NCBI RefSeq assembly: GCF_030296835.1
Contig: NZ_AP027922.1
Location: 3,534,001-3,598,000, forward strand
Direction: 5' to 3'
DNA length: 64,000 bases
From: Pseudoalteromonas sp. MM1
GTDB lineage: Bacteria > Pseudomonadota > Gammaproteobacteria > Enterobacterales > Alteromonadaceae
Part shown: positions 25,361 to 46,376 of the stretch, in pieces
Layout of the letters: each line of letters begins with the position of its first letter
Numbering within the stretch: position 1 is the first letter of the stretch
Made by a program: the position numbers and the translations under genes
The notes under the pieces: model-generated
Databases searched by the model: none
Told to the model about the DNA's origin: nothing
What the model saw: the letters and a program-made list of their open reading frames with translations, nothing else

Positions 25361-26314
25361 TTAACGGCGGTTTTTGCGTGCACGTGCACGGCGCTGTTTT
25401 TTCTCTTCTTCTTTAGCGGCTTTTTTAGCTTCTGCAGCGGCGCGCAATCCTACGACCATAATTTCTTCCTCTTCACGCATGGCAGGGGTTTCCATGGTGA
25501 TGCGGCCAATAATGCCATCACGAAGCTCGTTTATGAGTATTTCAGACATTTTATAAGTATCTATTTGGTTTCCACCACGAATACAGCCGCGCTTTTTACC
25601 GGCCATTTCTACAAACTCCCAATCACTTTCTGGCAGTTCATCGATTTTATAACGTGCTTTTAAAAGCTCAGGATAAGCTTTCAATAAATACTCTGCCGTA
25701 TAGCTTGCCACATCTTCATATTCAAGCGCGGTGTCGCGTATTGCACCTGTAGCGCCTAAGCGGTAACCCGAGTTCTCGTTTTCTACTTTAGGCCACAGCA
25801 TACCTGGCGTGTCGTAAAGCATAATGCCGTCTTCAAGTTTAATGCGCTGCTGTGCTTTTGTTACCGCAGGCTCGTTACCTGTTTTTGCCACTATGCGCCC
25901 AGCTAATACATTAATTAACGTAGATTTACCCACGTTTGGAATACCCATAATCATGGCTTTAATTTGCTTATCAGCACCCACTTTATGTGGCACCAATTTT
26001 TTACACAGCTCATTAATACGGTGCACCTCAGCAGCTTTATCATGACCAAACGCAATGGCTTTAACGCCACTTTCTTGCTCAAAATAGTCTTTCCATGCCT
26101 GGGTCATTTTGGGGTCAGCTAAATCCGCCTTATTTAAAATTTTAATGACCGGCTTGCCTTCACGAAGCGTGGTTACCATAGGGTTTTCACTACTGTAAGG
26201 AATGCGTGCATCAAGCACTTCAATGATCACATCCATTTGCGGCATTATTTCTTTAATCTCATTACGGGCTTTATTCATGTGCCCAGGGAACCACTGTATT
26301 CCTGCTCTACTCAT
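25361..26314 (-). CDS. ylqF: Ribosome biogenesis GTPase YlqF/RbgA, with island-supplied start
   Basis: The 317-residue circularly permuted GTPase carries G4 NKAD (61-64) before G1 GIPNVGKST (124-132) and G3 DTPG (168-171), the YlqF order. The family helps 50S subunit assembly. The C-terminus is a very basic KKQRRARARKNRR tail. The genomic island has recombined into codons 7-12 (QWFPGH). The present start, MSRAGI, and the promoter therefore come from island DNA, while the original start, MAI, survives 20 kb away at 46376. The protein remains full length, so integration is probably tolerated. Confidence 0.92.
   Translation of the reverse strand: MSRAGIQWFPGHMNKARNEIKEIMPQMDVIIEVLDARIPYSSENPMVTTLREGKPVIKILNKADLADPKMTQAWKDYFEQESGVKAIAFGHDKAAEVHRINELCKKLVPHKVGADKQIKAMIMGIPNVGKSTLINVLAGRIVAKTGNEPAVTKAQQRIKLEDGIMLYDTPGMLWPKVENENSGYRLGATGAIRDTALEYEDVASYTAEYLLKAYPELLKARYKIDELPESDWEFVEMAGKKRGCIRGGNQIDTYKMSEILINELRDGIIGRITMETPAMREEEEIMVVGLRAAAEAKKAAKEEEKKQRRARARKNRR
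26281..26296. repeat. Left attachment site of the genomic island (attL) inside ylqF
   Basis: The 16-bp sequence GCCCAGGGAACCACTG recurs identically at 46352-46367. It encodes QWFPG plus the first base of the next codon of ylqF on the minus strand, a highly conserved segment of the protein. Flanking bases differ. A direct repeat at both ends of an integrase-bearing segment is the product of site-specific integration. Confidence 0.85.
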
Positions 26315-26460: not shown

Positions 26461-26912
26461 AGATAATCATAAAATAACTCCTGCAATTTTTGTGATGGTC
26501 GAGCCAGCGAATGAAATAGCGTTTAATGCTGTCATTAGTGGTCCACTGGAATAAAGTTTTCCAAAAAATGGTTCCACTGATAGCGCTCATCTTCATCGAT
26601 GATTGACAATCCGCCAAGGGACGCCGCAATAAACAACCCGCACCACTGTGGTGTGATACTCTGAAACTAGCAGCAAGTGAACATAGCCCGCCAGATGATC
26701 AATGCAGGCTGAATTAGCCTTTGAAAGTCATGCTGGTTGAAGCCAAGTACCTGGCGCAGTTTTGCAATTAGCTCGTTTTGTGTGGACTGCAAATCTTCAG
26801 GTGACGCAGCTGGCAACCCCTTCAGGAATGGCGGATAGCGTGGGATTTCTGCATCGAGTTGAGATGACAGCTTTGGTAGTGCTTTTGTTTGAAAAAATAG
26901 GTTTTTGAACAT
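26461..26912 (-). pseudogene. Decayed traI relaxase remnant (TraI_2 / SXT-type)
   Basis: A leftward frame opens at ATG 26912 after a good GGAGG and reads MFKNLFFQTKALPKL, then QLDAEIPRYPPFLKGLPAAS. This resembles the N-terminus of the large TraI of SXT/R391-type elements. The intact frame stops at 26667 after 81 codons. Continuing with frame changes, further TraI-like pieces appear in order: DHLAGYVHLL, HHSGAGCLL, DEDERYQWN and DSIKRYFIRWLDHH, ending near 26461. At least three frameshifts or stops are needed, and most of the 700-residue parent is missing. It cannot encode a working relaxase, but suggests an integrative-conjugative ancestor or a mosaic capture. The family call is from memory of the motif pattern. 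Confidence 0.65.
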
Positions 26913-27029
26913 AGTGAACCTCCGACACGATAGTGTGAAGGTTCAATCTGCTGTTGCCGGTTGATTAGACTCAAAAAATCCGATATGTATTAACACATAT
27001 GCCATAAAATGCTTAGGGAGCTTATTAAG

Positions 27030-27743
27030 CTAAGGCGTATTTCTACTTGGCCTTTTAGTTTTTTTTCCAACTCTCCTTTTGGGTTTTTCAATCGGTGTAA
27101 AAGCATCTTGTAGGTGATCGCGAAACCATCGGCGTCGCTCAACTTGGCGAAACTCGTTCAAGACAAACCGATAGTCACACGAGCCAAGACGATCACCACA
27201 ACCACATGGACACGGTAATTTATTTGCCTCACGCTTGCGCAAACCTAACGCTTTCAGTGCCTGTAGAACTGATGCTTTACCATTAACATTGAACAACTGA
27301 GAATAATCATCAATCAGGCCTTTCTCACCATGGTCCAGTTCGCCATAGGGAAAGTTGCCAAATTCAACCCTATGGGACACCGAATAAAGGAACCTGACAA
27401 CAATCTTTTCGAAAAAGGTTGTCAATGACGAGTCGGTTTTCAAAATTGACTTAATTTTCAGGTCTGAGCCAAGACAAAATGATCCATCAGAGTAAGTATG
27501 GAAGTCCTGATTACGAGGAAAGTAACCAGCGGTATCAAACACCACTGGTAAAGCCCTAGGATAATTACTTGGGCATACAATCCTTAGAGAAAATGTTCGC
27601 TCAATAAACCGACTTCCAGCTAGCTGTGCTTTTAACTGATACTCTCCCTGCAACTCAATCTTATCTGCATGGACATCTACTAATCTAATGTTCGGATAGG
27701 CCGAGAGAAAAGCCTCTAAGCCTACAGCCTTCCAGTGCTTCAT
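27030..27743 (-). CDS. E2-like ubiquitin-transferase-fold protein of type II-short CBASS (Cap2-like without E1)
   Basis: The 237-residue protein has an E2-like core (about residues 10-140): LRIVCPSNYPRALPVVFD, then TAGYFPRNQDFHTYSDGS, followed by the presumed catalytic Cys90 in SFCLG. The order of P/Y motif, His and Cys fits bacterial E2-like proteins. A C-terminal cysteine-rich motif PCPCGCGDRLGSC (about 178-190) may bind zinc, and the end is very basic. No E1 or JAB domain is present, which defines the short form. In type II-short CBASS the E2-like protein acts on the C-terminus of the CD-NTase and primes signalling. Its ATG directly follows the CD-NTase stop (TAGATG), so it is the last gene of the operon. 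Confidence 0.8.
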   Translation of the reverse strand: MKHWKAVGLEAFLSAYPNIRLVDVHADKIELQGEYQLKAQLAGSRFIERTFSLRIVCPSNYPRALPVVFDTAGYFPRNQDFHTYSDGSFCLGSDLKIKSILKTDSSLTTFFEKIVVRFLYSVSHRVEFGNFPYGELDHGEKGLIDDYSQLFNVNGKASVLQALKALGLRKREANKLPCPCGCGDRLGSCDYRFVLNEFRQVERRRWFRDHLQDAFTPIEKPKRRVGKKTKRPSRNTP

Positions 27744-28934
27744 CTACTGCTTAAACCATGGCTTTGGATCAGATGATTGAATTGCAAACGTTGGTTTTGC
27801 TGTCACCGGAGGAATACCCAATAGACGTGCTACCGAACTTGAATCAAGCTTCAGATCCAAACCATTTTGCGCCGCATTTACTATTCGTTGCGTATCATCA
27901 CTTGAGCAAAGAGCACTAAAATCAGCTCTAGCTTGATACAGCCACTTATAAAAGTTTTCTTGTAATCGGTATTGAGCAGATTTTTCGTCATACCACTTGT
28001 CTGCAAAATCTTCGGCTGGGTTAACTGGGTTCGGAATCATTGGCGCTTGTGCAGAAATATGGTCATCCATCTCGGAGAGCACCGTATTCAACGCTGAAGC
28101 CAAATCACTTTCACCTTTATATGATTTAGCTGCCAATGTAGTGATGATTACCGATATTGGCTTACTATCCTCATTGTTTTTGAACATAGTGTCACGATGA
28201 CGCTTCAATAATTGGATCACCTGTTGTAAAGGTGTCTTCCATTGATAATATGGTAGACTATCTATACTGGCTTTAAATCGCATTTCACGTTCGTTTATTG
28301 CTAACCGTGCCGTCTTCATGCGCGTTTCAAACCATCGAGCATATCCTTCAGGATTGCTGATACGCCAATTTTCATCCACAACTGCATAAGTAGAATCTGT
28401 GTTGTCGGTAATCGAAGCTGCAAGCTGAGACACGTTTTGAGCCAAGTTTTCATCAAACTTAGAGTTTTCGACCATCCGCTTTTTCAACAGCCCTCTTCCT
28501 GTATCACTCTCTGGCACACACGGAACTATGTCCATGTGAAAGCTAAGTCCATCGGCATACTCTAAGCGCCAACAGCGTTTCTTCTCGGCTAGCTCTTCCT
28601 TAATGCCTCTGGCGTTTCGATAAAGCTCTAATTCATGACCGACTAGGTGCTTTAGTTGCTTTTGAGTGATAGACGTTTTATCCAGGCCACGCCGAAGATT
28701 GCACCCCATGTCTAGGTCATACTGTTCTTCTGAATCGGGCCTAATCGCCGTACCTAGACGAAAGGAACCTTGAGAAAACACGTGGGGATCAAAATTTACA
28801 CATGTTGACTCTGGGCGATGTAACCAATCACCTAGATCCTTATAGCGTTTTTCAGCCTTTTCATAAGCACTGTCAGGTAGCTCAATTTTTTCGAGAACTG
28901 TGTTTAGAACATCGTTACTTTTGCTATTACTCAT
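27744..28934 (-). CDS. CBASS CD-NTase (cyclic oligonucleotide synthase)
   Basis: The 396-residue nucleotidyltransferase has the GS motif QGSFRLGT (residues 55-62), the first two catalytic aspartates in YDLDMGC (D73, D75) and the third in FHMDIVPC (D135). This is the CD-NTase active site, which makes cyclic di- or trinucleotides on sensing phage. A helical C-terminal region follows and the protein ends KPWFKQ. The partner effector is an HNH-SAVED protein. Cap5 effectors are often paired with CdnG enzymes that make 3',2'-cGAMP, but the clade and product cannot be decided from the sequence alone. It overlaps the upstream Cap5 gene by 8 bp. Confidence 0.9.
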   Translation of the reverse strand: MSNSKSNDVLNTVLEKIELPDSAYEKAEKRYKDLGDWLHRPESTCVNFDPHVFSQGSFRLGTAIRPDSEEQYDLDMGCNLRRGLDKTSITQKQLKHLVGHELELYRNARGIKEELAEKKRCWRLEYADGLSFHMDIVPCVPESDTGRGLLKKRMVENSKFDENLAQNVSQLAASITDNTDSTYAVVDENWRISNPEGYARWFETRMKTARLAINEREMRFKASIDSLPYYQWKTPLQQVIQLLKRHRDTMFKNNEDSKPISVIITTLAAKSYKGESDLASALNTVLSEMDDHISAQAPMIPNPVNPAEDFADKWYDEKSAQYRLQENFYKWLYQARADFSALCSSDDTQRIVNAAQNGLDLKLDSSSVARLLGIPPVTAKPTFAIQSSDPKPWFKQ

Positions 28935-30081
28935 ATAGATCTCCTCGAAGCTCGATTGCCATTACAAATTGTTGTGTTTTTATGTCATGGTCATAAATAA
29001 GCCATGGCATATCAGCCTTAGGCATTCTGGCCCGTCCTAATTCGACGGCACACGATACTGGCATCACAGGAAAAATTTGCAGTGGCGTCGCATCCCCGTG
29101 TGTATTTTTGATTTCAACAATCAGCTTTCTTATGCACTTTCTGAACAAGGAGAGCTGCTGCTTTGACTGCATGAAATCATTATGAGGCTGCTTGATAGTC
29201 ACTTCCCAAATCGATGTATCTGGCCCTATAACCCGAGTAATTCGCTCATGCGACACATGGTCACTCAAAGAAAGTACCAGGGCTGGCTTTCCCTCCATAT
29301 TTTGAGGTCTGTTGATGGTGTACTCAAAATCATCTGAACAGTCTTGCCAAAACCAGCCTTTAGGCTCTCGATGCAGCTGATAAGTCTCGACGTCAATTTT
29401 GTCGGTGAGCAAAGCGCCAAGTTTTATTAACAATGGTTGAGGAGCTAACGCGAACAATGAAAAATGCTTACAAGAATCCTCTTCGATGATTGATGAAATT
29501 TTACTTTGAAAACGCTTCGTTAGGTGTTGCGACTCTGCTTGCCAAAATTGTTCAGAGTGATCATTCAGCTCTGATACCATGGATAGTGTCACTGGCTTTT
29601 CAGTTGCCGGATACCAATTCGGAAACATTGCCTCAACACAACCGTGATAATTAATCGGTGATCTTTCAGTTCCAATATTGGCACCATATAAAACAACATT
29701 TGATTTGCGATTAGGATCAATGCCTGTGAGGATTTCTATACGTTGCTCATGCTGCATTTTCCAACTAATCAAGAGATCGGCTGGATACCTATCTTCGCTG
29801 CCTTTCTGATCAATTTTTTTGTGACAGTCATAGCACATCAACATGAGGTTGCTGACGTCATTCAAGCTGGTTGACTTAGTTTTAAAGAGTCCCCAACCAC
29901 GAGGCCCATTCTCAGAAAATGCGTAAATATGAGCATTTTGAGAGACATTGACCGATTCCTGGGTCACCGCTGATTTGTATAACAATTTATTACACCCGCT
30001 AAACTGACAACGAGCAGCTGCGCGAGCCCAAAGCTCCCGCTCAACAGGACGCTTAATGTGCCTCGTGACTTCAACGACCAT
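28927..30081 (-). CDS. HNH-SAVED CBASS effector nuclease (Cap5-like)
   Basis: The 384-residue protein has an N-terminal HNH nuclease (about 10-115): CQFSGC (C25, C30), the catalytic-type NAHIYAF (H51), then NLMLMCYDCHKKID with C83, C86 and H87. The rest fits a SAVED domain, the sensor that binds the cyclic nucleotide and drives oligomerisation. LVLSLSDHVSHERI and a terminal MAIELRGDLYE are consistent with that fold. Activated Cap5 degrades DNA indiscriminately and aborts infection. The start at 30081 has AGGAG seven bases upstream. It overlaps the CD-NTase by 8 bp and follows the membrane-protein gene by 9 bp, so the operon is tight. Confidence 0.88.
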   Translation of the reverse strand: MVVEVTRHIKRPVERELWARAAARCQFSGCNKLLYKSAVTQESVNVSQNAHIYAFSENGPRGWGLFKTKSTSLNDVSNLMLMCYDCHKKIDQKGSEDRYPADLLISWKMQHEQRIEILTGIDPNRKSNVVLYGANIGTERSPINYHGCVEAMFPNWYPATEKPVTLSMVSELNDHSEQFWQAESQHLTKRFQSKISSIIEEDSCKHFSLFALAPQPLLIKLGALLTDKIDVETYQLHREPKGWFWQDCSDDFEYTINRPQNMEGKPALVLSLSDHVSHERITRVIGPDTSIWEVTIKQPHNDFMQSKQQLSLFRKCIRKLIVEIKNTHGDATPLQIFPVMPVSCAVELGRARMPKADMPWLIYDHDIKTQQFVMAIELRGDLYE

Positions 30082-30090
30082 TCAAAACTC

Positions 30091-30459
30091 CTATAGTTTG
30101 CCAATTAAAGGAAGTGAGCGCGGTGTTGTCGCATCACAGAGCAAATGACTGACATAAGCACATCCGGCGATTAGCCCCAGCCCGCGAAGACACTTATCAA
30201 TTGCCTCTTCCGGTTGCCACTCATACAAATGTTTGAGACCAACACCTAGTGCAGTTAACACCAACAGACTGTGGCAAAACTGGCGATGGTTAGGGTTACC
30301 CAAAGAGGGTTCCAGAATATCTGGAAGCTTGCCAAATAGAGAGCCAACCGTAATGGCAGTTACAGGATGGTGACTGACAGCTTGTTTTTTGTTGTCCGCT
30401 AGGGCCACGGTTAAACCAACCGCAGCCCCGACGACCAAATGGGTTTTATCATTAGCCAA
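30091..30459 (-). CDS. YdjM-like (LexA-binding/metal-dependent hydrolase family) small membrane protein
   Basis: The 122-residue protein resembles the YdjM/DUF457 membrane hydrolase family. It has a hydrophobic start HLVVGAAVGLTVALAD, then KLPDILEPS and the family-type HRQFCHSLLVL, and a late CAYVSHLLCDATTPR segment, giving three or four short membrane segments with conserved His/Asp. The start is TTG at 30459, supported by AAGGAG seven bases upstream; no ATG gives the full domain. One base separates it from the upstream small gene and nine bases from Cap5, so it is inside the CBASS transcript. It may be a second membrane-acting component or a passenger; no role in CBASS is established. Confidence 0.72.
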   Translation of the reverse strand: MANDKTHLVVGAAVGLTVALADNKKQAVSHHPVTAITVGSLFGKLPDILEPSLGNPNHRQFCHSLLVLTALGVGLKHLYEWQPEEAIDKCLRGLGLIAGCAYVSHLLCDATTPRSLPLIGKL

Positions 30460-30460
30460 A

Positions 30461-30634
30461 CTATTTCTCCTTCCTGACGCCTTTAAAAGGCGTTTTGTCA
30501 GATGTCTTTACATCCATGAATCGACCAGTATCAGCATCTCGCTTTACCCAATGTCCGCTTGGCGTCTGAGTCTGAGATCGACCTTTAACGGCACCGTTTC
30601 TGTGTCCGTCACCTGATGGGGGATTTGTAGCCAT
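30461..30634 (-). CDS. Small basic protein heading the CBASS operon
   Basis: The 57-residue protein starts MATNPPSGDGHRNG and continues as a basic, low-complexity chain (AVKGRSQTQTPSGHWVKRD, TPFKGVRKEK). It has no signal peptide or membrane helix and looks largely unstructured. An ATG ten codons further upstream is in frame, but AGGAGG directly before 30634 decides the start. The GDGHRNGAVKGRSQ style is that of a widespread uncharacterised family that I associate with YdjM-like genes. Function is unknown; nucleic-acid binding would suit its charge. It is the first gene of the operon. Confidence 0.65.
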   Translation of the reverse strand: MATNPPSGDGHRNGAVKGRSQTQTPSGHWVKRDADTGRFMDVKTSDKTPFKGVRKEK

Positions 30635-30639
30635 AAAGC

Positions 30640-30680
30640 CTCCTGTTCTGCTTAACTTAATCACATTTATCAGATATTAA
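30640..30680 (-). promoter_or_regulatory. Candidate promoter of the CBASS operon
   Basis: On the minus strand TTGGAT (inside the terminator stem to the right) and GATAAA are 17 bp apart, with GATAAA about 30 bp before the first ATG. The 10-mer TCTGATAAAT here recurs upstream of the STAS gene. This is weak, sequence-only evidence. Confidence 0.35.
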
Positions 30681-30701
30681 TAAAAAAGATCCAAAGGATC
30701 T
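30681..30701 (-). terminator. Terminator between the STAS gene and the CBASS operon
   Basis: On the minus strand AGATCC-ttt-GGATCT is followed by a run of T. It lies about 60 bp after the STAS-HTH stop codon and separates the restriction/ATPase transcript from the CBASS transcript. Confidence 0.7.
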
Positions 30702-30763
30702 GACCAAATAATAAACTTCAATTCTGATTAACGCAAGCAGATTAACCAGAAAATCAAAAAAAA

Positions 30764-31315
30764 CTACACAATTGATCGGTAGACAAATTCCAGTCCACCT
30801 GACTCTGCCACTTCTTTTTGACCTAACACAAGACCTGTAGCATGAAGCTTCTTCAATCGACCACTGGCATTTTGTGCTGAAATGTCAAAATGCTTAGATA
30901 CATGTGACGAAGTCACTGTCTTTTTTGCAATAACAAAATCTAGAAGCTCTTTGACAGTCGCACTGAGTTTTACACCAAGCACTTCGTAACCGCTATCGCT
31001 TTTCACTAGAAGAGGCTGATCTTTGGCTGTAGCGCCATAAGACCAATTGTCCAGAAGGTCACGACTCGGTACATTAGAAAGGTAAAAACCTTTTTCTCCT
31101 TTCAATGCTTTAGCCAACGAGATTACACTTTCACGAGGAAATGAAGCATCAGTGAATCGAATCCCTTCCAAGCTAATAGCAAAAATATCGCATGATGGGT
31201 GACCATCAACGATCTTTTTAATCTTCACATAGGCTTCACTACCTTCATCGTTACCAAAGGCATGGTCAGAACCTACGACTTCTGAAAGAAGAATTTTATG
31301 AGTTAACTGTTTCAT
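30764..31315 (-). CDS. STAS-like (DUF4325) protein with C-terminal winged helix
   Basis: The 183-residue protein has an N-terminal half (about 1-85) that fits the STAS-like DUF4325 fold: [19 protein letters not shown], then the strand [10 protein letters not shown]-terminal winged-helix DNA-binding segment (about 118-183) reads [20 protein letters not shown] followed by [21 protein letters not shown] proteins usually work as phosphorylation-controlled partners of GHKL kinases, as SpoIIAA does with SpoIIAB. The adjacent upstream gene encodes just such an ATPase, so a two-protein switch is likely. A 7-bp inverted repeat lies across the gene junction upstream. Target genes are unknown. Confidence 0.75.
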
Positions 31316-31323
31316 CTGATTAA

Positions 31324-31352
31324 GTTGACACTATTTATCAGAAATTGTCAAC
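31324..31352. promoter_or_regulatory. Inverted repeat at the ATPase/STAS junction, possible operator
   Basis: GTTGACA at 31324-31330 and its exact complement TGTCAAC at 31346-31352 flank a 15-bp spacer containing ATTTATCAGA. It covers the last codons of the ATPase gene and the leader of the STAS gene. The STAS protein carries a winged helix, so autoregulation is possible. Function is inferred. Confidence 0.4.
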
Positions 31353-32423
31353 ATAGAAGTCAAAACAGATATGAGTTCCTGTGATAGGGACCAACCCTCG
31401 ATCTTCAGAAACATTGATGAGTTGACCCTTCGCATATTCCAAAGCCAATGAGAAAGTTAGCTGCCTAATAACAATGATAACTTTCTCTTTGCTAGCGTGC
31501 TCTCGACTACTCTTAAAGCCTAGCCCCCGGCCTTTACCAAAGCGACTAACCTCACCAGATGTAAAAGCTTTTTGAACTAGCGCAATATCATTCTCAACAG
31601 TTTCCGCTGAAAACTGTGCGTATAACTTCGGATGTTCACTTTGTAACGTTGTTCTCAAGGTAGCGGCAATACCTAAACCAGAGTCGGATATGACTGTTTG
31701 AATATGCTTTGGTTTATTATACGGTCGATATACTTGCAGACCTGCTAGTCCAGGTATTTTGGATTCACTGTGATCAGTAACGTTGCCTACAAGCTCTGAA
31801 AAAACAGTCTTAGCCGCTAAGAAATAGCTAGCTGAAGAATGCTCAACAAACCTGTCGCCCAAACGAATTACAAGCTCTTTGTTTTGGGTTGGTTGCTCGA
31901 TTTCTCCTAGTTCGACCAAGGTATCGCTATTATCCCGATAAGTTTTAGCAGCTGACAAAAAGGGTCTTTCAGGAAGGCAAGTTACACTTTGATTAAGATA
32001 GTCAAAGAAGCCATTTCTGCTGAAAAAGCTGTGGGTATTAGGACATGCTGTAGTATCTATCACCACATCCTTCCCATTCACAGTAAGCTGATTCGCGAGA
32101 GCAAGGAAACGGGCTAATGCTATCAGCAAAAACTTACAATCGATGCCGAATCTAAATGTTACCTTGTTTTCATCTTTTTGATAGGCAAGCTTACCGATAG
32201 CATTCTCAAAGGCTTTATCATCAATCCAACCTGTAGCAAAATCAATTTCCACATGCTGAACCCGTATCAGGCACCATTCATGATTTGAGTTTTTCACAAA
32301 CGTATCTTGGTTTTTGTGAAGAAACGAGTTCACTTGAGACTTATCCAGCCCCAGCTCCTTGGCAATTTGACGCCCTTTCATTCTCGGTGAATGGTACAAC
32401 AAATTTGATATAGCTCTTAGCAA
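31338..32423 (-). CDS. HTH-STAS-GHKL ATPase, partner of the DUF4325 protein
   Basis: The 361-residue protein has three parts: an N-terminal winged helix (about 1-52; MKGRQIAKELGLDKSQVNSF), a STAS-like middle (about 88-150; NGKDVVIDTTACPNTHSFF) and a GHKL ATPase domain (about 185-355). The N box is FSELVGNVTDHSE, the G1 box is ISDSGLGI and the G2 box is FGKGRGLGF. No dimerisation histidine or transmembrane sensor is visible, so it is not a classical sensor kinase. The start is TTG at 32423, with GGAGG seven bases upstream and no better ATG. It lies 36 bp after hsdR. I know of no named system with this architecture. Confidence 0.75.
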   Translation of the reverse strand: MLRAISNLLYHSPRMKGRQIAKELGLDKSQVNSFLHKNQDTFVKNSNHEWCLIRVQHVEIDFATGWIDDKAFENAIGKLAYQKDENKVTFRFGIDCKFLLIALARFLALANQLTVNGKDVVIDTTACPNTHSFFSRNGFFDYLNQSVTCLPERPFLSAAKTYRDNSDTLVELGEIEQPTQNKELVIRLGDRFVEHSSASYFLAAKTVFSELVGNVTDHSESKIPGLAGLQVYRPYNKPKHIQTVISDSGLGIAATLRTTLQSEHPKLYAQFSAETVENDIALVQKAFTSGEVSRFGKGRGLGFKSSREHASKEKVIIVIRQLTFSLALEYAKGQLINVSEDRGLVPITGTHICFDFYVDNF

Positions 32424-32459
32424 ACCGCTTCCTCCATTAATATCTTCCCTAAATGCCTT

Positions 32460-35400
32460 CTATATCTGCCCACCAACACCTTTAAATTTCTCAACAAATA
32501 CGGCGATTTTTTGAAACACCGTTTGCTTCTGAGTTCGGTACTGTGGGTTCAATGGGCTAAGTTTGGGCAGCGCCTCATTCAGTGCAGTGCCATTTTCAGA
32601 GGCGTACTCACGTTTGAGTGATGACGCAATATAGCGTTTGGCAGCATCGATATTGAGCTTTTCAGAGGCAATAATTACATCGGCTTCGCGCTTCTGCTCC
32701 GCTTGGGCGAACTTGAAGAAGGCGTCGATAATGCTGGCTTTGTCATTGATCTCATCTAGGTTTGTCTGGTTAATAAAATCAACCACCAAGCTCTCTTTCG
32801 CTCTATTGCCAAGGCTACCGCGGATCATACGGCGAACTTCTTCTATCAAGCCTTCTTTGCTCTTATTCTTCTTATTGTGGTCAAAAATCAGTTCAAGAAT
32901 GTAGTCGAGGTTGATTTCTTGAGATTTTAGCAAATCAACTTCAAATACCACATCGTCCCAGTCTACCGTTGACTTATCTTTGTCCTGACCTTCTTTATCA
33001 CGTCGTAACCAGTCGCGTGTATCGCTGTAAGTAGAACGATAATCTTGAATAGCACGTTCGCTAGGCATATCGATGGTTTGCATTGCCTCGATGTCAGCAT
33101 CGTCCAGATAGTACTTTGACTTAAACTCTTCAACAGCTTGTTCATCACTGGTATCTAAGCTTTGCAGTGCTTTTAATCCAGCAAACTCATCGTAGTTTTG
33201 TAAAATATTTTCTGCTTTTAGGTATTCACCAAATAACTTGGCAAATTCTTTTTTATCTTGTTCTTTTTCAATATTTTCTGGGTTTGGAAAACGTTCTTGC
33301 AGCTCTTTTACAATATCAACAAAACCTCGATGCTCTTGTTTGTTAACAATATCGTAGAAGCCTTCCATGTATTCTTTGTAGCTCTTCTCCAGCACCACGT
33401 TTTTGGTGTTTTTGTCACCAAACAAAGTGATGGCATCAATGGTCGCCTGTTCCAAGTCACGAAAGGTAACAATATTGCCAAAGGTCTTAGTCGCATCATA
33501 AATGCGGTTAGTGCGAGAAAACGCCTGCATCAAGCCGTGATAGCGCAAATTCTTATCAACAAACAAGGTGTTAAGCGTAGGCGCATCAAAGCCCGTTAAA
33601 AACATACCGACCACGATAAGCAGATCTATTTCTTTATTCTTAACTCGTTGGGCAAGGTCACGGTAGTAGTTCTGAAAGCCATTACTGTCTACGCCATAGT
33701 TAGATTTAAACATGGCGTTATAATCAGTGATCGCGGCGCTCAAAAACTCTTTTGCGCTACTATTCATGGCATTGACTTCAAAGCTCTCATCTAAAATATC
33801 ACCAATGGCGTCCTGCTCTTCATTAGCAGCAAATGAGAAGATAGTCGCAATGCGCAGAGGTTTACTTGTGGGGCTATTTTCTGCCTCGGCCTGCAATGTT
33901 TTGAAGGTTTCATAGTACGCTTTCGCTGCATCAACACTACTGACCGCAAACATGGCGTTAAACCCTTTTGCACCAGAATAGGCTCGATGAGTTTTCTGGT
34001 TAAAATGGCTCAGAATATACCGCGAGATTTCACTAATTCGCATGGGATGTAAAAACGCTTTCTTATTCTCGGCGGCACTGAGTTTTTTATCGTCTTGTTC
34101 AGTCTCAATGCTCTTAAATTGCGGACGAACATCGTTATAGTCCACTTTGAATTTAAGTACTTTTTCATCACGAATGGCATCCGTGATAACATATGTATGC
34201 AACTGCTGGCCAAACACGTCGCCCGTGGTTTCTGCACCCAAGGCGTTTTCAGGGAAAATTGGCGTACCGGTAAAGCCAAACTGGTAGTACTTTTTGAATT
34301 TCTTCTTGAGGTTTTTTTGCGCCTCACCGAATTGGCTGCGATGACACTCATCAAAAATAAACACCACTTGCTTGTTGTATATCGCTAAATCGCTCTCATT
34401 CTTTATTAAATTGTTGAGCTTTTGAATAGTGGTAACAACAATCTTGTTATCGTCTTTATCCAGGTTGCTTTTTAGCCCTGCGGTACTGTCTGAACCATTC
34501 ACACTATCAGGCGAAAATCGCTGATATTCTTTCATAGTTTGAAAATCGAGATCTTTTCTGTCTACCACAAAAAAGACTTTATCAATACAGTCTAAATCGG
34601 TTGCCAAACGTGCCGCTTTAAAACTGGTGAGTGTTTTGCCTGAACCCGTGGTGTGCCAAATATACCCGCCGCTTTCAGGCTTAGCCCAATCTTTAGCGTT
34701 AAACGCGCTCTTTATCTTCCATAAAATACGCTCTGTGGCAGCAATCTGGTAGGGGCGCATGACCAACAAAGTATTGCTAACGTCAAACACCGAGTAACGC
34801 AAGATCACTTCAAGCAACGTCTCTTTCTGGAAAAAAGTGGCGGTAAAGTCTTTTAAATCCTTAATAAGCGTATTGTCAGATTTTGCCCAGTTCATCGTAA
34901 AGTCGAAGCTGTTTTTGTCACGTTTCGTGGTATTGGCAAAATAGCGCGTGTCGGTGCCATTAGAGATCACAAACAGCTGCAAGAACTTGTACAAGGAGTG
35001 ATCGCTATTAAAACTCTCTTTACTGTACCTATGTATTTGATTAAACGCCTCGCGGATCGCCACACCCCGTTTTTTCAGTTCAATTTGCACCAAAGGCAAA
35101 CCATTGACCAAAATCGTCACATCATAACGGTTTGCATGGCTTCCCGTTTGTTCAAACTGCTTAATCACCTGCACTCTGTTACGAGCAATGGTCTTCTTGT
35201 CGAATAGGTAGATATTTTCTATATGGCCATCATCGAAGACAAAATCGAAGATATAGTCACTGTGCACCTTACGGGTTTTATCAAGAATATTGTCGCTTGG
35301 TGTGTTCAGGTATTGATCGCAAAAGCGAACCCATTCGGCATCGGTAAACTCGACCTTATTAAGGGCTTGTAGCTGCTTGCGCACATTCGCCAGCATGGCA

Positions 35401-35573
35401 TCGGGCGTGGTTAGCGCGGGTAAATACTCATAGCCTTGATTGCTTAGATCCTGAATCAGCTCACGCTCTAAATCACCTTCGCTCTGAAAGTTTTCTGCTA
35501 CTTTCCAGTCTTTAGTGTATTTATCTAAAACAATAAAATTATTGGATTCTGCCACCGTTTTATAAGTCGTCAT
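32460..35573 (-). CDS. hsdR: Type I restriction endonuclease subunit R (type IC, EcoR124-like)
   Basis: The 1037-residue subunit is almost the length of EcoR124I HsdR (1038). The PD-(D/E)xK nuclease residues are D151, E165 and K167 (in YDVTILVNG and IELKKRG), the same numbers as in EcoR124I. The SF2 translocase follows with Walker A TTGSGKT (308-314), DECH (408-411) and motif FTGTPIF, then a helical C-terminal region that binds the methylase core. It cleaves unmethylated DNA after ATP-driven translocation. It overlaps rhuM by 4 bp (ATGA), so it is translationally coupled. Confidence 0.95.
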
Positions 35574-36619
35574 TCATTTACATCCTTTTTCTTACTTCCA
35601 TGCCCAAGTAGCTTTTTAACCTCGCGGTCAAAGTCTGACTCTATTTTTTGTTGTTTATTAAATTGCTCATAAGCGGCATGGGCTTTTTGCTCAGCCGCCT
35701 TGCGGGTCACATTGCCATAGCCTTCTAACACTTGGTACTCATTAAAGGCTAAAAACTTATTCACACTTTCAGCGAAGGCTTCCATGGTAAAAGTATTACG
35801 GCGTTCAATAATACCTTCTATGTAATCAAAAAATGCTGACACAGCGCGTTCGAGCTTTTTAATTTCATCTTCTGCCAGATAGTTTTTCGCAACCGTAGTG
35901 TCTGATTTGAGTATTCTACCTTCAGGTGCATTTTTATAAGTGCTCATACCCATCAATGGCTTATTAGCGTCAGCTTTAAGGGCAATGATTTCAGAAGATG
36001 TATGGCCGGTAATAGCAAAATGAAATTTGTCTTGTACATGAGCATAAAACAGACGGGTAGTTTCTGATTTAGGGTTATAATCAATACTACATTCTGCAAA
36101 AATGTCAGTGATTTGCTGATAAATACGTCGCTCACTGCTACGAATGGAGCGAATGCGTTCTAGCAGCTCTTTAAAATAATCTTTACCGAAAAAACGGCCA
36201 TTTTTAAGGCGCTCATCATCCATGGCAAAGCCTTTAATGATGTAATCTTTAATCAGTTGTGTTGCCCAAATCCTAAACTGGGTGGCTTGCGCTGAATTAA
36301 CCCGATAACCAACAGAAATCACCGCATCAAGGTTGTAATATTTGACTGTTTTGGTTTGAGTTTTGTCAGCAATAGCGCCATGTGCAGTGGTATTTTCCAA
36401 AATGGAAATAACCAGTTCCTCTTGTAGCTCGCCACTTTCAAAAATATTTTTAAAATGCTTAGAAATAGCAGGAACACCCACACCAAATAATTCAGCAATA
36501 CGCTTTTGGGTCAGCCAAATGGTTTCGCCACTGAGTAATACTTCTACTTTCACATCACCGTTGGGCGCAGTGTAAAGTAAAAATTCAGAGGTTTGATCTT
36601 GTAGGCTAAGGTTTGGCAT
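35570..36619 (-). CDS. rhuM: RhuM family protein within the restriction operon
   Basis: The 349-residue protein belongs to the RhuM family first named in a Salmonella pathogenicity island. The N-terminal region (about 10-110) is DNA-binding-like: [34 protein letters not shown], split here by residues typical of the family. It is followed by [26 protein letters not shown]. Its biochemical role is unknown, though it is a frequent passenger between hsd genes. ATG at 36619 with AAGGA seven bases upstream is preferred over an ATG nine codons earlier. It overlaps the anticodon-nuclease gene by 14 bp and hsdR by 4 bp. Confidence 0.85.
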
Positions 36620-37742
36620 TGGCTTTTCCTTGCAGTTTAAAACCATAGTTATTTAATAGATGTTCGAGCAGAAACTTAACAATTTGCTTTTCAGGTCCAG
36701 TTGGCTCAGCTACTTCTTCGTTTGATAATGAACGATGACTATAAAAGTGCATCACTCGTTTGGCGTATAGCTCGCGGCTTTCGGGTAGTAGCGCAGTCCA
36801 ATCTGCGTACCCCAAAAATGCTGCGACTTTCTCATAAAGGTTGCGCAGTAAATTGAAGTGAAAACGCTGTATTTCATTGTTCGTAATAGCTTGTTCAATC
36901 AATTGCTTGATATACAAGTGATAAGAAAAATTGGTATTCGCGCCACCTTTTTTTTCTTTTAAATCAAAGGTTCCATCTTCAAATCGTTGCAATAAGTAAC
37001 AGATTTTCGCATTAAGCTCATTGTGCAACACATTGTAAAATAGCGGATTATGTGTCGATATGATAAATCTAAGCTTCTCAGATTTGCTTAACTTGATTAG
37101 TTCCGCCAAATTAACTGCAAGTTCAATTAAATGGTTTTCATCTAATGAGCTGACGGGGTCATCAATGAACACATATTCTAGCTGATTGAAGCTCTCATCA
37201 TCCTCTTCATCAGGGTTATTCATGACTCTAACAACTTGCTCTAGAAGCCCATGAAAAATACTCCAGACAAAATTACTTTCTTCGCCCTTAGATATTTTTA
37301 CATGCTGTGCTCTTTCCGCATTTCCTCGCTCAAATGAAAACGTTACTTGAGTAAAGTCTTCATTAAAATGAGGCGTCAACTTCTCGTTGCTATAACGCTG
37401 AAACAACCTAGTGATATTAGGCTCTTGGCCTTGCACTTTTAATATCCAATCGGTAAACGTATTGGGTTGGATTTTTAGCTTCGGCTCTGCATCAGCATCT
37501 AAGTCGTTATCCCAGTAAAACAAGTCTTCCGTAAACGCGTTGTAATATAAAATCTTATGGCGCGACAGAGGCGCTTGCTCTGCATCAATAAGCGCATCTT
37601 GCCCATCGTCTTTCGGCGCAATGATCTCTTTAAATTCACGCGACAAACGCGTTTTACCTGTGCCGTTAAAGGCATAGATCAACTGCACCTTTTTGTCGGA
37701 CGCTTGCAACAACTCTGCTATTTCCGTTAGCGTTTTACTCAT
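36606..37742 (-). CDS. prrC: PrrC-like anticodon nuclease
   Basis: The 378-residue protein has an ABC-type ATPase part: Walker A FNGTGKT (25-31), a signature-like ISKGEES (150-156), Walker B EYVFIDDPVSSLDE (189-202) and the H-loop STHN. The C-terminal nuclease triad of E. coli PrrC is R320, E324 and H356. Here R300 and E304 (RNLYE) and H336 (YSH) keep exactly the same spacing. PrrC is held silent by the type IC restriction complex and cuts tRNA-Lys at the anticodon when phage disable restriction. Gene order, directly after hsdS, matches the prr locus. The start overlaps the hsdS stop (TAATG). The tRNA target here is inferred. Confidence 0.85.
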   Translation of the reverse strand: MSKTLTEIAELLQASDKKVQLIYAFNGTGKTRLSREFKEIIAPKDDGQDALIDAEQAPLSRHKILYYNAFTEDLFYWDNDLDADAEPKLKIQPNTFTDWILKVQGQEPNITRLFQRYSNEKLTPHFNEDFTQVTFSFERGNAERAQHVKISKGEESNFVWSIFHGLLEQVVRVMNNPDEEDDESFNQLEYVFIDDPVSSLDENHLIELAVNLAELIKLSKSEKLRFIISTHNPLFYNVLHNELNAKICYLLQRFEDGTFDLKEKKGGANTNFSYHLYIKQLIEQAITNNEIQRFHFNLLRNLYEKVAAFLGYADWTALLPESRELYAKRVMHFYSHRSLSNEEVAEPTGPEKQIVKFLLEHLLNNYGFKLQGKANAKP

Positions 37743-38938
37743 TAAGCGGCCTCATCTGAATGAGATTTCGGGAAGCTTAATAACAGGTCACGATAATACT
37801 CGTATTGCTTTTGACGTAGCTCGATTTCGCGGGGGAGACCTTCGGTGATTGAGTTAGTTAGAGCGTCGAATTTATCGAGGATAGCGACAATGCGCGCTTG
37901 CTCTGCCTGCGATCTTTCAGGGTCGTTTGGATAGGGAATCGGAAATTGAACATTCTTTATCATGGGTTTTGTTAACTGAGGTATCCCTGCTGGCGGCACG
38001 GGATAATTATTTTCAATAGTTTTCATATAGTAATAAGCGTACTTTGTATCCACACCAATTTTCGGTGTTAAAACAAGTAATCGGATAATCGGGAAAAATG
38101 GTCGATCACGATAACTTGTCCATCCAATAGTCCCTCGAGCTGAAACCGTTAAGCTTGGTTCTGTTATTTTTGGTAAGTTTGTCCAACCATACAAAGATTT
38201 TAAGCCTATTCCATTAGATAGAATTGGCACGTTAAATTCATCGGATTCTTCCTTTGAAAAAGCGTCTTTTGGTTTATCTCCACCTGCGAAAATATTGAAT
38301 ACTTCCCCCAGCGCCTTCCACTCAACGTCACCCTCTTCAAAACTAAACAACTGGTCGCGGTAGTAATTGTATTGTTTTTTCCGCATGTTAAGCTCGGCGG
38401 TCAGCTCGGCGGTCAGCTCGGCGGTCATGGCGGTAAATGCGTCCAGAATACGCACTATTTCAGCTTGTATTGCCAGCGATTTTTCTGGGTTATCTGGGCA
38501 TGGAATGGGGATTTTTTTAGCACAGTAATTACTAATCCATTGGCGTTTATGATCACCTTCAACCAAGTCACTCGGTAGCGTATTCATCCAATAATATACG
38601 TACTTCAGCATGAGCCTCGACTCATCACTAGATTTAATCATTTTCATTGCTGAGGATTTAGCTTTAAAGTCGAAGTCAACCCATTTATTAGCTGTAGTGA
38701 AGTCATCAAAAATGATTACAGGATTTTCTGAAGCTCGATTGATCCCGTCTATTTCGTCCGTATAACCTAAAATAAAAGTCTTGCCCGCAGTTAATACAGG
38801 GATCTCAAACGAATCATCATAGTTTTTCGTTTTTACGAGATATTTTGTCGGCTGTTCGTATTTTGTTACATCCCCTAAAGCTAATTCTTTAAGCTCAACC
38901 CCATCCAGCAGTTTCTCTAAATAGCTCAAATGACTCAT
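37742..38938 (-). CDS. hsdS: Type I restriction specificity subunit S with TAEL repeats
   Basis: The 398-residue subunit has two target-recognition domains (about 1-150 and 205-350), each followed by a conserved spacer helix ending in [15 protein letters not shown] sequence ([17 protein letters not shown] and [17 protein letters not shown]). The central spacer contains three tandem TAEL units, as in the EcoR124 family, where two or three units set the length of the non-specific spacer in the DNA target. The two halves define the bipartite recognition sequence, which cannot be read from sequence. It overlaps hsdM by 4 bp and the prrC-like gene by 1 bp. Confidence 0.94.
38390..38425. repeat. 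Three tandem 12-bp units encoding TAEL in hsdS
   Basis: The 12-mer CAGCTCGGCGGT (minus strand ACCGCCGAGCTG, coding TAEL) is repeated three times, the last with one third-base change. Slippage would add or remove four residues without breaking the frame. Confidence 0.9.
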
Positions 38939-40500
38939 GCCTCACCCTCCTCACCTTCAATTTCCGCCACAATGGCATCAATATCACTGCGAAGCGCATC
39001 AATTTTAGCAACGGTAGTTTCAAGTTCGGCATTAAGCTCAGTAATGTCCACTAGCTCGCGGTTGTCTTTCGCTTCCACATAACTGCTTACCGAAAGGTTG
39101 TAGCTGTTGCCTGCGATAACATCCAAATCAACCGATTTAGCAAAATGCTCCACATTCTCTTTGCTGGCAAACACATTCATGATGTCTTCAATGTGCTGAT
39201 TAGTGATAACGTTGGTATTGGTTTCTTTTTTAAAGTAAGCCTCGCCACTGGCATCTATAAACTGGGTGGTAGTGTCGGTTTTGTGCTTAGACAGCACCAA
39301 AATATTCACGGCAATGGTGGTGCCAAAAAACAGGTTAGGTGCCAATGAAATTACGGTTTCAACATAGTTGTTATCAACCAAGTATTGGCGAATTTTTTGC
39401 TCCGCCCCGCCACGGTAAAAAATACCGGGAAAGCAGACAATGGCTGCGCGGCCTTTACTTGATAGGTAACTCAGCGCATGCAATACAAAAGCAAAGTCGG
39501 CTTTTGATTTAGGCGCTAATACGCCAGCGGGCGCAAAGCGGTCGTCGTTGATTAAGGTTGGGTCGTCGCTACCAATCCATTTCACTGAATAAGGTGGGTT
39601 AGAGACAATCGCGTCAAACGGCTTGTCGTCTAAAAAGTGCGGTTCGGTTAAGGTATCACCCAACTGAATATTAAACTTGTCGTAGTTAATGTTGTGCAAA
39701 AACATGTTCATACGCGCCAAGTTGTAGGTGGTGTGGTTTAGCTCTTGACCAAAAAAACCATCCTCAATGATATGCGCATCAAAGTGTTTCTTGGCTTGTA
39801 ACAGCAATGAACCGGAGCCCGCCGCAGGGTCATAGATTTTATTGACACTAGTTTGGCCGTACATGGCCAGCTGCGAGATCAATTTTGAAACGTGCTGAGG
39901 CGTAAAAAATTCGCCACCGGATTTACCCGCATTGGCGGCGTAATTTGAAATAAGGAACTCGTAAGCATCACCAAACAGATCGTTTTCGTTATCTTCAAAT
40001 TGAGTGATGTTAAGTCCAGCTACGCCTTTTAATACCGCAGCAAGGCGTTTGTTTTTTGCCTCTACCGTATTACCCAGACGATTACTGGTGGTATCAAAAT
40101 CCGCAAACAAGCCTTTGATGTCTTTTTCTGAGTCATAGCCGTTGGCTGAGTTTTCGATTGCAGCAAAAATAGCCGCCAAATCAGTATTTAAGTTTTCGTT
40201 CTTATGCGCATTAGCCGCCACATTGCTAAACAACTGGCTTGGAAGGATAAAATACCCTTTAGTGCGAACTGCATCATCTTTGGCAGCCAGAATGTTTTCA
40301 TCATCATCGTCCATGGCAGCATAATTAACACTTTCATCACCGCCTGTGATGTAACCAACAAAGTTCTCACTGATAAAACGATAGAACAAAGTACCCAACA
40401 CGTACTGCTTGAAGTCCCAACCATCTACTGAACCTCGCACATCGTTAGCAATAGCCCATATTTGTCGTTGAAGCTCAGCACGTTGTTGATTACTTGTCAT
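38935..40500 (-). CDS. hsdM: Type I restriction methyltransferase subunit M
   Basis: The 521-residue N6-adenine methyltransferase has the SAM-binding motif [10 protein letters not shown] (224-233) and the catalytic NPPY (301-304). The N-terminal helical HsdM domain (about 10-160) and [10 protein letters not shown] ahead of the catalytic core are typical. With HsdS it methylates and protects host sites. Its length is within one residue of EcoR124I HsdM (520). It is the first gene of the operon; GGGAAT precedes its ATG. A perfect 15-bp inverted repeat lies 50 bp upstream. Confidence 0.95.
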
Positions 40501-40550
40501 TTCTTTATTCCCGTAAAGTACGTTATTTAATATTAAGCCGCATATTTTAG

Positions 40551-40588
40551 TAAGTCAGATAAAGCCAATACGAGCTTTATCTGACTTA
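40551..40588. promoter_or_regulatory. Perfect 15-bp inverted repeat upstream of hsdM
   Basis: TAAGTCAGATAAAGC and its exact complement GCTTTATCTGACTTA are separated by 8 bp. It lies between alpA and hsdM, both leftward. No T run follows on the minus strand, and only four T on the plus strand. It may therefore be an operator or leader stem controlling hsdM, or a poor terminator for alpA. Confidence 0.5.
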
Positions 40589-40665
40589 CTTTTCATTCAA
40601 ATAATACTACCACAAATTCTATATAATCAATCTGCTGCTTCAGTTTATAAATAGTTTTATTGTCT

Positions 40666-40848
40666 TTACACTTCCCTTTCACCAATTCTTTCCATTATCC
40701 AATCATCCACTTCTGACTCAAGCCAGGCTACAGATTTGGCACCTAACGATACTTGCTTTGGAAATGTGCCTTTAGTCATAAACTCATAAATTGTTGAACG
40801 GCCTAGTGATGTTTTTTCGATTACTTCTTTTAATTTGATTAAACGCAT
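40666..40848 (-). CDS. alpA: AlpA family excisionase/regulator
   Basis: The 60-residue MerR-like winged-helix protein is complete: LIKLKEVIEKTSLGRSTIYE, then FPKQVSLGAKSVAWLESEVD and the WI terminus. AlpA proteins activate integrase genes or act as excision directionality factors in P4-like and CP4 elements. It is divergent from the radC-like gene, and the 124 bp between them hold the promoters of both. It probably controls excision of this island. Confidence 0.88.
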   Translation of the reverse strand: MRLIKLKEVIEKTSLGRSTIYEFMTKGTFPKQVSLGAKSVAWLESEVDDWIMERIGEREV

Positions 40849-40972
40849 GGAATTTCTCCGGTTGGTTATTAGTACATAACCTTTCCGGGGTTAGTATTTT
40901 TTTATGCCCTCAAACAAAAAACTTACACATATACATCACTAACTTGCATGAACCACTTAAGAGGAATTTACA

Positions 40973-41446
40973 ATGCAAGGTCAACAGTCGTTATATGAAT
41001 TTAAACACCCAGTAAATGATGAGCAGATACTAGAAGCCGCTGCATACATAATCGCTAAGAAGCAGTTTCGTGATGGCGTTTTAAATAGCCCTAATGATTG
41101 CGAAGAATACTTAAAGCATAAACTCGCGATACATGAGCATGAGGTATTTGCCGTACTGTTTTTAGATAGCCAAAACCGCATACTGGAGTTTAAAGAGCTA
41201 TTTAGAGGCACTATTAATGCAGCTAGTGTTTACCCTAGAGAAGTCGTTAAAGAAGTGTTAGAGCTTAATGCAGCATCCGTTATCCTGGCGCATAACCACC
41301 CTTCGGGCGTTACCACCCCATCTCAAGCAGACAAACTTATTACTACCAAACTTCAACAGGCACTTAACCTAATTGATGTATCTGTGCTTGATCACATCAT
41401 CATTGGTGAAAGCACGTATTCATTTGCTGAGCATGGATTAATTTAA
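40973..41446 (+). CDS. RadC-like JAB/MPN domain protein
   Basis: The 157-residue protein holds only the MPN part of the RadC family. The JAMM zinc motif reads HNHPSG (107-112) with D120 following. Full-length RadC has an N-terminal helix-hairpin-helix region that is missing here, as in the island proteins YfjY and YkfG of E. coli. Despite the name, a repair role is not established. GAGGAA precedes the ATG. It heads a rightward set with DUF2787 (12 bp away) and a tyrosine recombinase (11 bp away). Confidence 0.9.
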   Translation: MQGQQSLYEFKHPVNDEQILEAAAYIIAKKQFRDGVLNSPNDCEEYLKHKLAIHEHEVFAVLFLDSQNRILEFKELFRGTINAASVYPREVVKEVLELNAASVILAHNHPSGVTTPSQADKLITTKLQQALNLIDVSVLDHIIIGESTYSFAEHGLI

Positions 41447-46163: not shown

Positions 46164-46213
46164 AATAAGCTCCACAATGATGATTAAGACTAGTATATAT
46201 AAAATACAATCTC

Positions 46214-46340: not shown

Positions 46341-46376
46341 TTAATACAAGCGCCCAGGGAACCACTGGATAGCCAT
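46341..46376 (-). pseudogene. Stranded original 5' end of ylqF
   Basis: On the minus strand, AGGAG (46387-46383) and, six bases on, ATG at 46376 open a frame reading MAIQWFPG, then RLY and a stop at 46341. The first eight codons are a normal YlqF N-terminus, and the frame breaks at the attachment site. This is the native ylqF start and ribosome-binding site, now separated by 20 kb from the body of the gene. Confidence 0.85.
46352..46367. repeat. Right attachment site of the genomic island (attR)
   Basis: GCCCAGGGAACCACTG, identical to 26281-26296. Left of it is island DNA, right of it chromosomal DNA. Confidence 0.85.

Follow-up and report, generated by a model that had tools for sequence, protein, structure and literature searches.

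A copy of the CapK+CapS switch, probably controlling CBASS, behind a type I restriction-modification system in Pseudoalteromonas sp. MM1

Two adjacent genes lying between a type I restriction-modification (R-M) system and a CBASS operon in Pseudoalteromonas sp. MM1 are, judged by sequence, a copy of the published CapK+CapS system, and we consider it very probable (roughly 0.93) that they switch on the downstream CBASS operon in response to DNA damage. The window, by which we mean the whole stretch of 64,000 nucleotides that was analyzed, had been read before from its letters alone, and that sequence-only reading knew of no named system with this layout; the statement is outdated, the pair having been named CapK+CapS in June 2026 (PMC13373217). 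The 183-aa protein of the pair equals PDB entries 9Z72 and 9Z73 over residues 2-182 except for an engineered S58A (PDB sequence search, E 1.1e-115), and these entries are Vibrio cholerae CapS S58A from Chambers et al., EMBO J 2026 (PMC13373217). The system is already known, and what we add to it is modest: operators, the R-M families and the context of a 57-aa protein. The pair illustrates how a cell-killing defence stays off until DNA damage arises.

Both open reading frames of the earlier reading are present on the minus strand. Together with the elements downstream of them, they are arranged as follows:

31338..32423, minus strand: capK, predicted HTH-STAS-GHKL kinase, 361 aa, TTG start (open reading frame, weak HATPase_c match, 52-row alignment)
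31315..31342, no strand: operator A, in the capK-capS gap; wide palindrome with 0 mismatches to the extended pattern and an imperfect narrow one nested in it
30764..31315, minus strand: capS, predicted STAS-wHTH repressor, 183 aa, phospho-acceptor Ser58 (identity to PDB 9Z72/9Z73, residue conservation)
30723..30750, no strand: operator B, just 3' of capS; wide palindrome, 0 mismatches
30687..30701, minus strand: intrinsic-terminator-like hairpin with a T run, between operators B and C (weak)
30647..30674, no strand: operator C, just 5' of the 57-aa gene; wide palindrome, 1 mismatch, with a perfect narrow TTAAcTTAA nested in it
30461..30634, minus strand: conserved 57-aa protein (PADLOC candidate PDC-S38), encoded by the gene that opens the downstream operon
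30091..30459, minus strand: YdjM-like membrane protein, 122 aa (Pfam YdjM, E 9.7e-15)
28927..30081, minus strand: CBASS effector, HNH-SAVED nuclease (Cap5 type)
27744..28934, minus strand: CBASS CD-NTase (cyclase)
27030..27743, minus strand: CBASS E2-like protein (PADLOC E2 model, E 4.6e-100)

In the published description CapK is an HTH-STAS-GHKL protein and CapS a STAS-wHTH protein (PMC13373217). The same three domains had been read into the 361-aa protein, of which GHKL and HTH find weak Pfam matches below the cut-off (HATPase_c at E 3.3e-4 and 21.5 bits, under a cut-off of 26.4; HTH_24 at E 0.045), and the STAS domain was not detected by Pfam. The ATPase N and G boxes stand, and are not a matter of chance, because E210, N214, D247, G249, G251, G300 and G302 are invariant, together with W66, across 52 aligned sequences, made up of the window protein and 51 relatives taken from the 120 listed among 366 found. 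Loss of active-site residues among homologues, which had been raised as a point to check, is not seen in this alignment, W66 and N214 being kept in 52 of 52 aligned CapK proteins; they correspond to W68, a tryptophan that stacks on ssDNA, and to N218, the kinase asparagine, of E. roggenkampii CapK. Among the lysines of the ssDNA groove K239 is kept, and the position of K237 holds an arginine in the window and varies among relatives. Over 98% of its length, the window CapK shares 39% identity with the product of the gene that neighbours the paper's CapS accession.

The 183-aa protein was rightly described as a STAS protein with a winged helix of its own: a MarR-like winged helix is matched by Pfam below the cut-off, and the N-terminal STAS domain is known from the crystal structure (PMC13373217). 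The label DUF4325 has to be dropped, since neither protein matches it in Pfam at E <= 0.1. Ser58 corresponds to S54 of E. roggenkampii CapS, and the phospho-serine is present in seven of seven capK-linked CapS proteins aligned; N149, K155, G173 and G174 are conserved, as are the DNA-contact residues in the window copy. Two CapS relatives (L027:6052-6567 and L029:6007-6579; L numbers denote compared loci) carry Cys or Thr at the phospho-serine position; neither has an annotated CapK immediately before it, and their plasmids gave no match to CapK.

The two genes do occur together. capS directly follows capK in the window, at a gap of 22 bp, as it does in all 18 loci with a capK not interrupted by an insertion, namely 13 close ones (window, L001-L011 and L016, with L009 still counted although its contig ends inside capS) and five distant plasmid loci (L022-L026). 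L012 and L013, where capK is cut, and L014, a short weak match, were left out of this count. The published survey likewise reports capS after every one of 443 capK genes (PMC13373217). CapK was found at E <= 1e-20 in one of 369 genomes of the class, the window's own, and the pair is therefore rare in that sample; 41 plasmid records match CapK, and 50,697 phage records gave no match at E <= 1e-5.

The earlier comparison with a SpoIIAB/SpoIIAA-like partner switch, in which the STAS partner binds DNA and regulates defence genes, agrees with what is reported for CapKS (PMC13373217). Direct DNA binding had been suggested for both partners; the paper bears this out for CapS but not for CapK, whose HTH could be deleted without effect. 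Repression, phosphorylation, activation by ssDNA and dissociation of the dimer were all demonstrated with the E. roggenkampii homologue (PMC13373217), and by analogy we infer that the window copy acts in the same way. CapS dimers would sit on the palindromes before capS and the CBASS operon and keep both repressed. ssDNA from repair, phage replication or restriction would activate CapK, which would then phosphorylate CapS at Ser58 and so cause the dimer to dissociate, switching on CBASS together with the leading genes for the 57-aa and YdjM-like proteins. What the window contributes to this picture is the CapS sequence identity, the conserved active residues and operators in the right places.

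In SpoIIAB-SpoIIAA and RsbW-type anti-sigma switches, too, a GHKL kinase phosphorylates a serine of its STAS partner (PMC13373217), but CapKS has no sigma factor and its STAS partner itself binds DNA. CapW/BrxR and CapH+CapP share with CapKS that they are ssDNA-triggered controllers of defence operons (PMC13373217); the former uses a WYL repressor mechanism and the latter a peptidase-repressor one, both unlike CapKS. The related VapKSC is a kinase-STAS pair that responds to DNA damage and protects against a phage (PMC13373217), which speaks for the suggestion that the two window genes act as a defence or toxin-antitoxin system in their own right. We regard this as very improbable indeed. VapS inhibits a PIN-domain toxin and ends in a short tail instead of a wHTH (PMC13373217), whereas CapS has a DNA-binding wing with conserved DNA-contact residues, the adjoining genes are hsdR and the 57-aa gene with no PIN toxin gene, and operators are present.

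CapS sites are published as TTAA half-sites 1 or 10 bp apart (PMC13373217). Between capS and the CBASS genes, the window holds a perfect wide site of the published spacing (TTAA-N10-TTAA, 30728-30745) and a perfect narrow site (30652-30660), both 3' of capS; in the site before capS the TTAA core is imperfect. Bare TTAA patterns are not enriched across the window (5 found against 6.3 expected, and 9 against 6.3). An extended pattern of 28 bp, with the half-site TCTGRTWAA and a 10-bp spacer, has its three best matches in the genome of 4,489,222 bases (0, 0 and 1 mismatch) all at the capKS locus, a ranking that is partly circular because the pattern was drawn from that locus. Three places with 2 mismatches come next, and a reversed control pattern also has three; 20 simulated sequences of 64 kb contained no site at <= 2 mismatches.

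Distant loci provide a fair test, because the pattern was not fitted to them. A tandem pair of operators 3' of capS, with centres 72-76 bp apart, is found in all 12 close loci with a readable stretch (window, L001-L008, L010, L011, L016; 76 bp in the window and L010) and in three of the five distant ones: C. koseri (0 and 0 mismatches, 72 bp), V. atlanticus (0 and 3, 74 bp) and the E. roggenkampii plasmid with the paper's CapS accession (2 and 2, 74 bp). A. johnsonii has no pair 3' of capS and a single site before capS with 1 mismatch; Sphingobium has no pair 3' of capS, and its sites have 4 mismatches. The window shares with the published CapK+CapS the order of the genes, the active residues, the type of operator and the setting between R-M and CBASS, but differs in two respects. 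In the window clade the narrow palindrome reported before capS is imperfect and nested in a wide one, and the text of the paper names one wide site 3' of capS, where the window and the E. roggenkampii plasmid have two in tandem (PMC13373217). No sigma-70-type consensus promoter lies at the operators; a scan of the region found one, inside capK, against 4.3 expected. Terminator-like sites numbered four in the scanned region against 1.5 expected in shuffles, a weak excess.

The neighbours named by the sequence-only reading were identified correctly, although CBASS does not adjoin the pair: hsdR lies directly upstream of capK, and two operators, the terminator-like hairpin, the 57-aa gene and the YdjM-like gene intervene between capS and the CBASS genes. 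CBASS consisting of a CD-NTase and an effector is confirmed by matches to cyclase, HNH-SAVED and E2 models. The upstream R-M operon comprises:

32460..35573, minus strand: hsdR, EcoR124-like type I restriction subunit
35570..36646, minus strand: RhuM-family protein (PADLOC PDC-S05), inside the R-M operon
36606..37742, minus strand: PrrC-like ATPase (AAA_13), inside the R-M operon (PADLOC PrrC model, E 5.2e-143)
37742..38938, minus strand: hsdS (Pfam Methylase_S, E 1e-30)
38935..40500, minus strand: hsdM (Pfam N6_Mtase, E 5.4e-116; HsdM_N)

An open reading frame upstream of hsdM, read by eye, may be AlpA-like. The genes for the PrrC-like ATPase and the RhuM-family protein are embedded in this operon, and RhuM was not found in L012. 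HsdS identity between copies is just 36-48%.

Such an arrangement is not peculiar to the window. Of 443 capKS loci in the published survey, 348 precede a known or predicted immune operon, which is CBASS in 75 of those, and 88 lie directly behind an R-M system, so that an R-M/CapKS/immune-operon sandwich has been described (PMC13373217). Among the close loci that include the 5' end of capK (window, L001-L013 and L016; L014 was excluded as a short weak match), a type I hsdR stands directly upstream in 15 of 15, at 36 bp in the window and 18-195 bp in the 14 where the gap was measured. Because hsdR precedes capK at so short a gap, capK could be co-transcribed with hsd, and this lends some weight to the earlier proposal that the pair regulates both the R-M system and CBASS. 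We nevertheless think control of both quite unlikely. No CapS operator at <= 3 mismatches precedes hsdM in the window or, where covered, in L001-L017; the closest candidate near hsdM in the window, at 40834-40861, departs from the pattern at 4 positions, and the window has six sites of this quality where simulated sequence leads one to expect 4.45. Moreover, a BrxR-type WYL gene of its own precedes the R-M operon in 10 of the 13 loci with DNA before hsdM at least partly available, all relatives of the window locus (L001-L008, L003 in part, L010 and L016; not L012, the window or L009, the last with 1,069 bases only). The WYL protein of L016 resembles PDB 7QFZ (E 1.9e-120) as well as entries under the names CapW and BrxR, and BrxR was reported near type I restriction enzymes in 34 of 210 systems (PMC9122601). 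No WYL gene precedes the window's R-M operon, and the window's genome has no WYL match. A repressor acting on type I R-M systems, RptR, has been published (PMC12255303). We favor a switch in which CapS controls CBASS and itself but probably not the R-M genes, with capK presumably transcribed along with the hsd operon or from a promoter close by.

Coupling may instead run in the reverse direction, an idea that the authors of PMC13373217 raise in their discussion: ssDNA made when the R-M system cuts DNA could activate CapK, so that the first line of defence arms CBASS in a two-tier arrangement. This is compatible with a CapKS switch for CBASS as the best explanation, and we regard it as possible at clearly less than even odds. 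In its favor, the order R-M, capKS, CBASS is kept across three distinct type I R-M families. HsdR family 1, EcoR124-like as in the window, occurs in L001, L009, L010 and L012; family 2 in L002, L003, L006-L008, L011, L013 and L016, with a DUF4268 gene in seven of eight copies; and family 3 in L004 and L005, the HsdM proteins of families 2 and 3 being related to each other. A scar of such an exchange is visible in L005, where the last eight codons of a family-2 hsdR are kept before capK (50 bp, 94% to L016); in L004 seven of the eight residues match the family-2 hsdR end, and no DNA match was reported. Also in favor is P0009, a protein of 616 aa in which the C-terminal part of HsdR is fused in frame to a CapK without HTH, but this fusion may be a deletion derivative. 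Against the reverse coupling, no R-M gene is annotated directly upstream in five of five distant plasmid loci, which indicates that CapKS does not need R-M; in V. atlanticus a methyltransferase gene lies 0.9 kb upstream, and an hsdR lies downstream on the other strand.

The R-M system of the window also occurs without CapK. Plasmids H2-H5 match the R-M genes and none of them is among the 41 CapK-matching plasmid records; in L017, the one of the four that was opened, an HTH-IrrE gene and a PIN-like gene precede the R-M system. In E. coli, 1,217 of 5,426 genomes have DNA similar to the 14-kb stretch 26600-40600, and among the 20 matches listed the similarity is to the R-M genes only. A Salmonella plasmid (L028) carries a capK remnant of 42 codons behind another hsdR.

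In the window, and in the close loci covering that stretch, the 57-aa gene comes next after capS. Its product has a far wider distribution: a search at E <= 0.001 gave 4,133 clusters of similar proteins. It matches the PADLOC candidate model PDC-S38, a name for which our literature search found no paper. A sample of 369 genomes of the class contained it in 10, and one of 398 genomes of the phylum in 11. Of 18 places taken, 17 were classified (L074 was not), the window's genome being excluded and one shared genome counted once. In 12 of these 17 genomes the neighbour of PDC-S38 is a WYL or an HTH-IrrE gene: WYL in L048, L049, L051, L052, L053, L056, L067, L069 and L072, and HTH-IrrE in L054, L055 and L068, with neither in L050, L066, L070, L071 and L073. 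By sample, a regulator adjoins in eight of nine from the class and in four of the eight new ones from the phylum. The L056 copy has an internal stop. In eight plasmid regions opened out of 66 records, three copies sit beside a WYL gene (L032-L034), a fourth overlaps a gene annotated as ImmA/IrrE (L035) and the other four do neither (L030, L031, L036, L037). BrxR relatives, the one group of such regulators counted, occupy 55 sites spread over 51 of the 369 class genomes, which would make chance adjacency unlikely.

PDC-S38 is followed by a YdjM-like gene in L048, L049, L051, L052 and L068 and by a DUF1508 (YegP-type) gene in L067; YegP-like genes are reported behind capKS in 57 loci (PMC13373217). 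For Salmonella ydjM, two SOS boxes and a 2.11-fold induction are listed, and a reporter gave no signal (PMC8072944). We tentatively hypothesize, at a little under even odds, that PDC-S38 is a common part of DNA-damage-triggered operons under any switch, be it CapKS, BrxR/CapW or another WYL protein, or HTH-IrrE, often followed by YdjM- or YegP-like genes, and that, instead of belonging to CBASS, it serves a general ssDNA-response module as its effector or as a feedback or adaptor factor. One tiny conserved protein would then recur beside several unrelated damage switches. In the Vibrio atlanticus plasmid, a stretch of four genes (L024:9521-12289) follows capKS and a small gene; it has no PADLOC match, and DUF6765 alone is clearly named in it.

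The WYL gene is preceded by a TnsE C-terminal domain in two loci, L001 and L016, and the block can therefore ride on Tn7-like elements. The links of Tn7 with BrxR/WYL and CBASS, and of YdjM/YegP with CapW/BrxR, may be known already, and we do not claim that they are unpublished. The window copy itself lies in a 20-kb island (26281-46367) bounded by 16-bp direct repeats. A tRNA as the target of the island was rejected, there being no tRNA in the window, and a RadC-like gene (40973-41446) lies within the island, whose ends are:

26281..26296, no strand: 16-bp direct repeat at the left end, inside the 5' end of a GTPase gene at 25361-26314 (Pfam MMR_HSR1)
46352..46367, no strand: 16-bp direct repeat at the right end, beside an integrase gene at 44958-46175 (Phage_integrase, E 7.3e-27)
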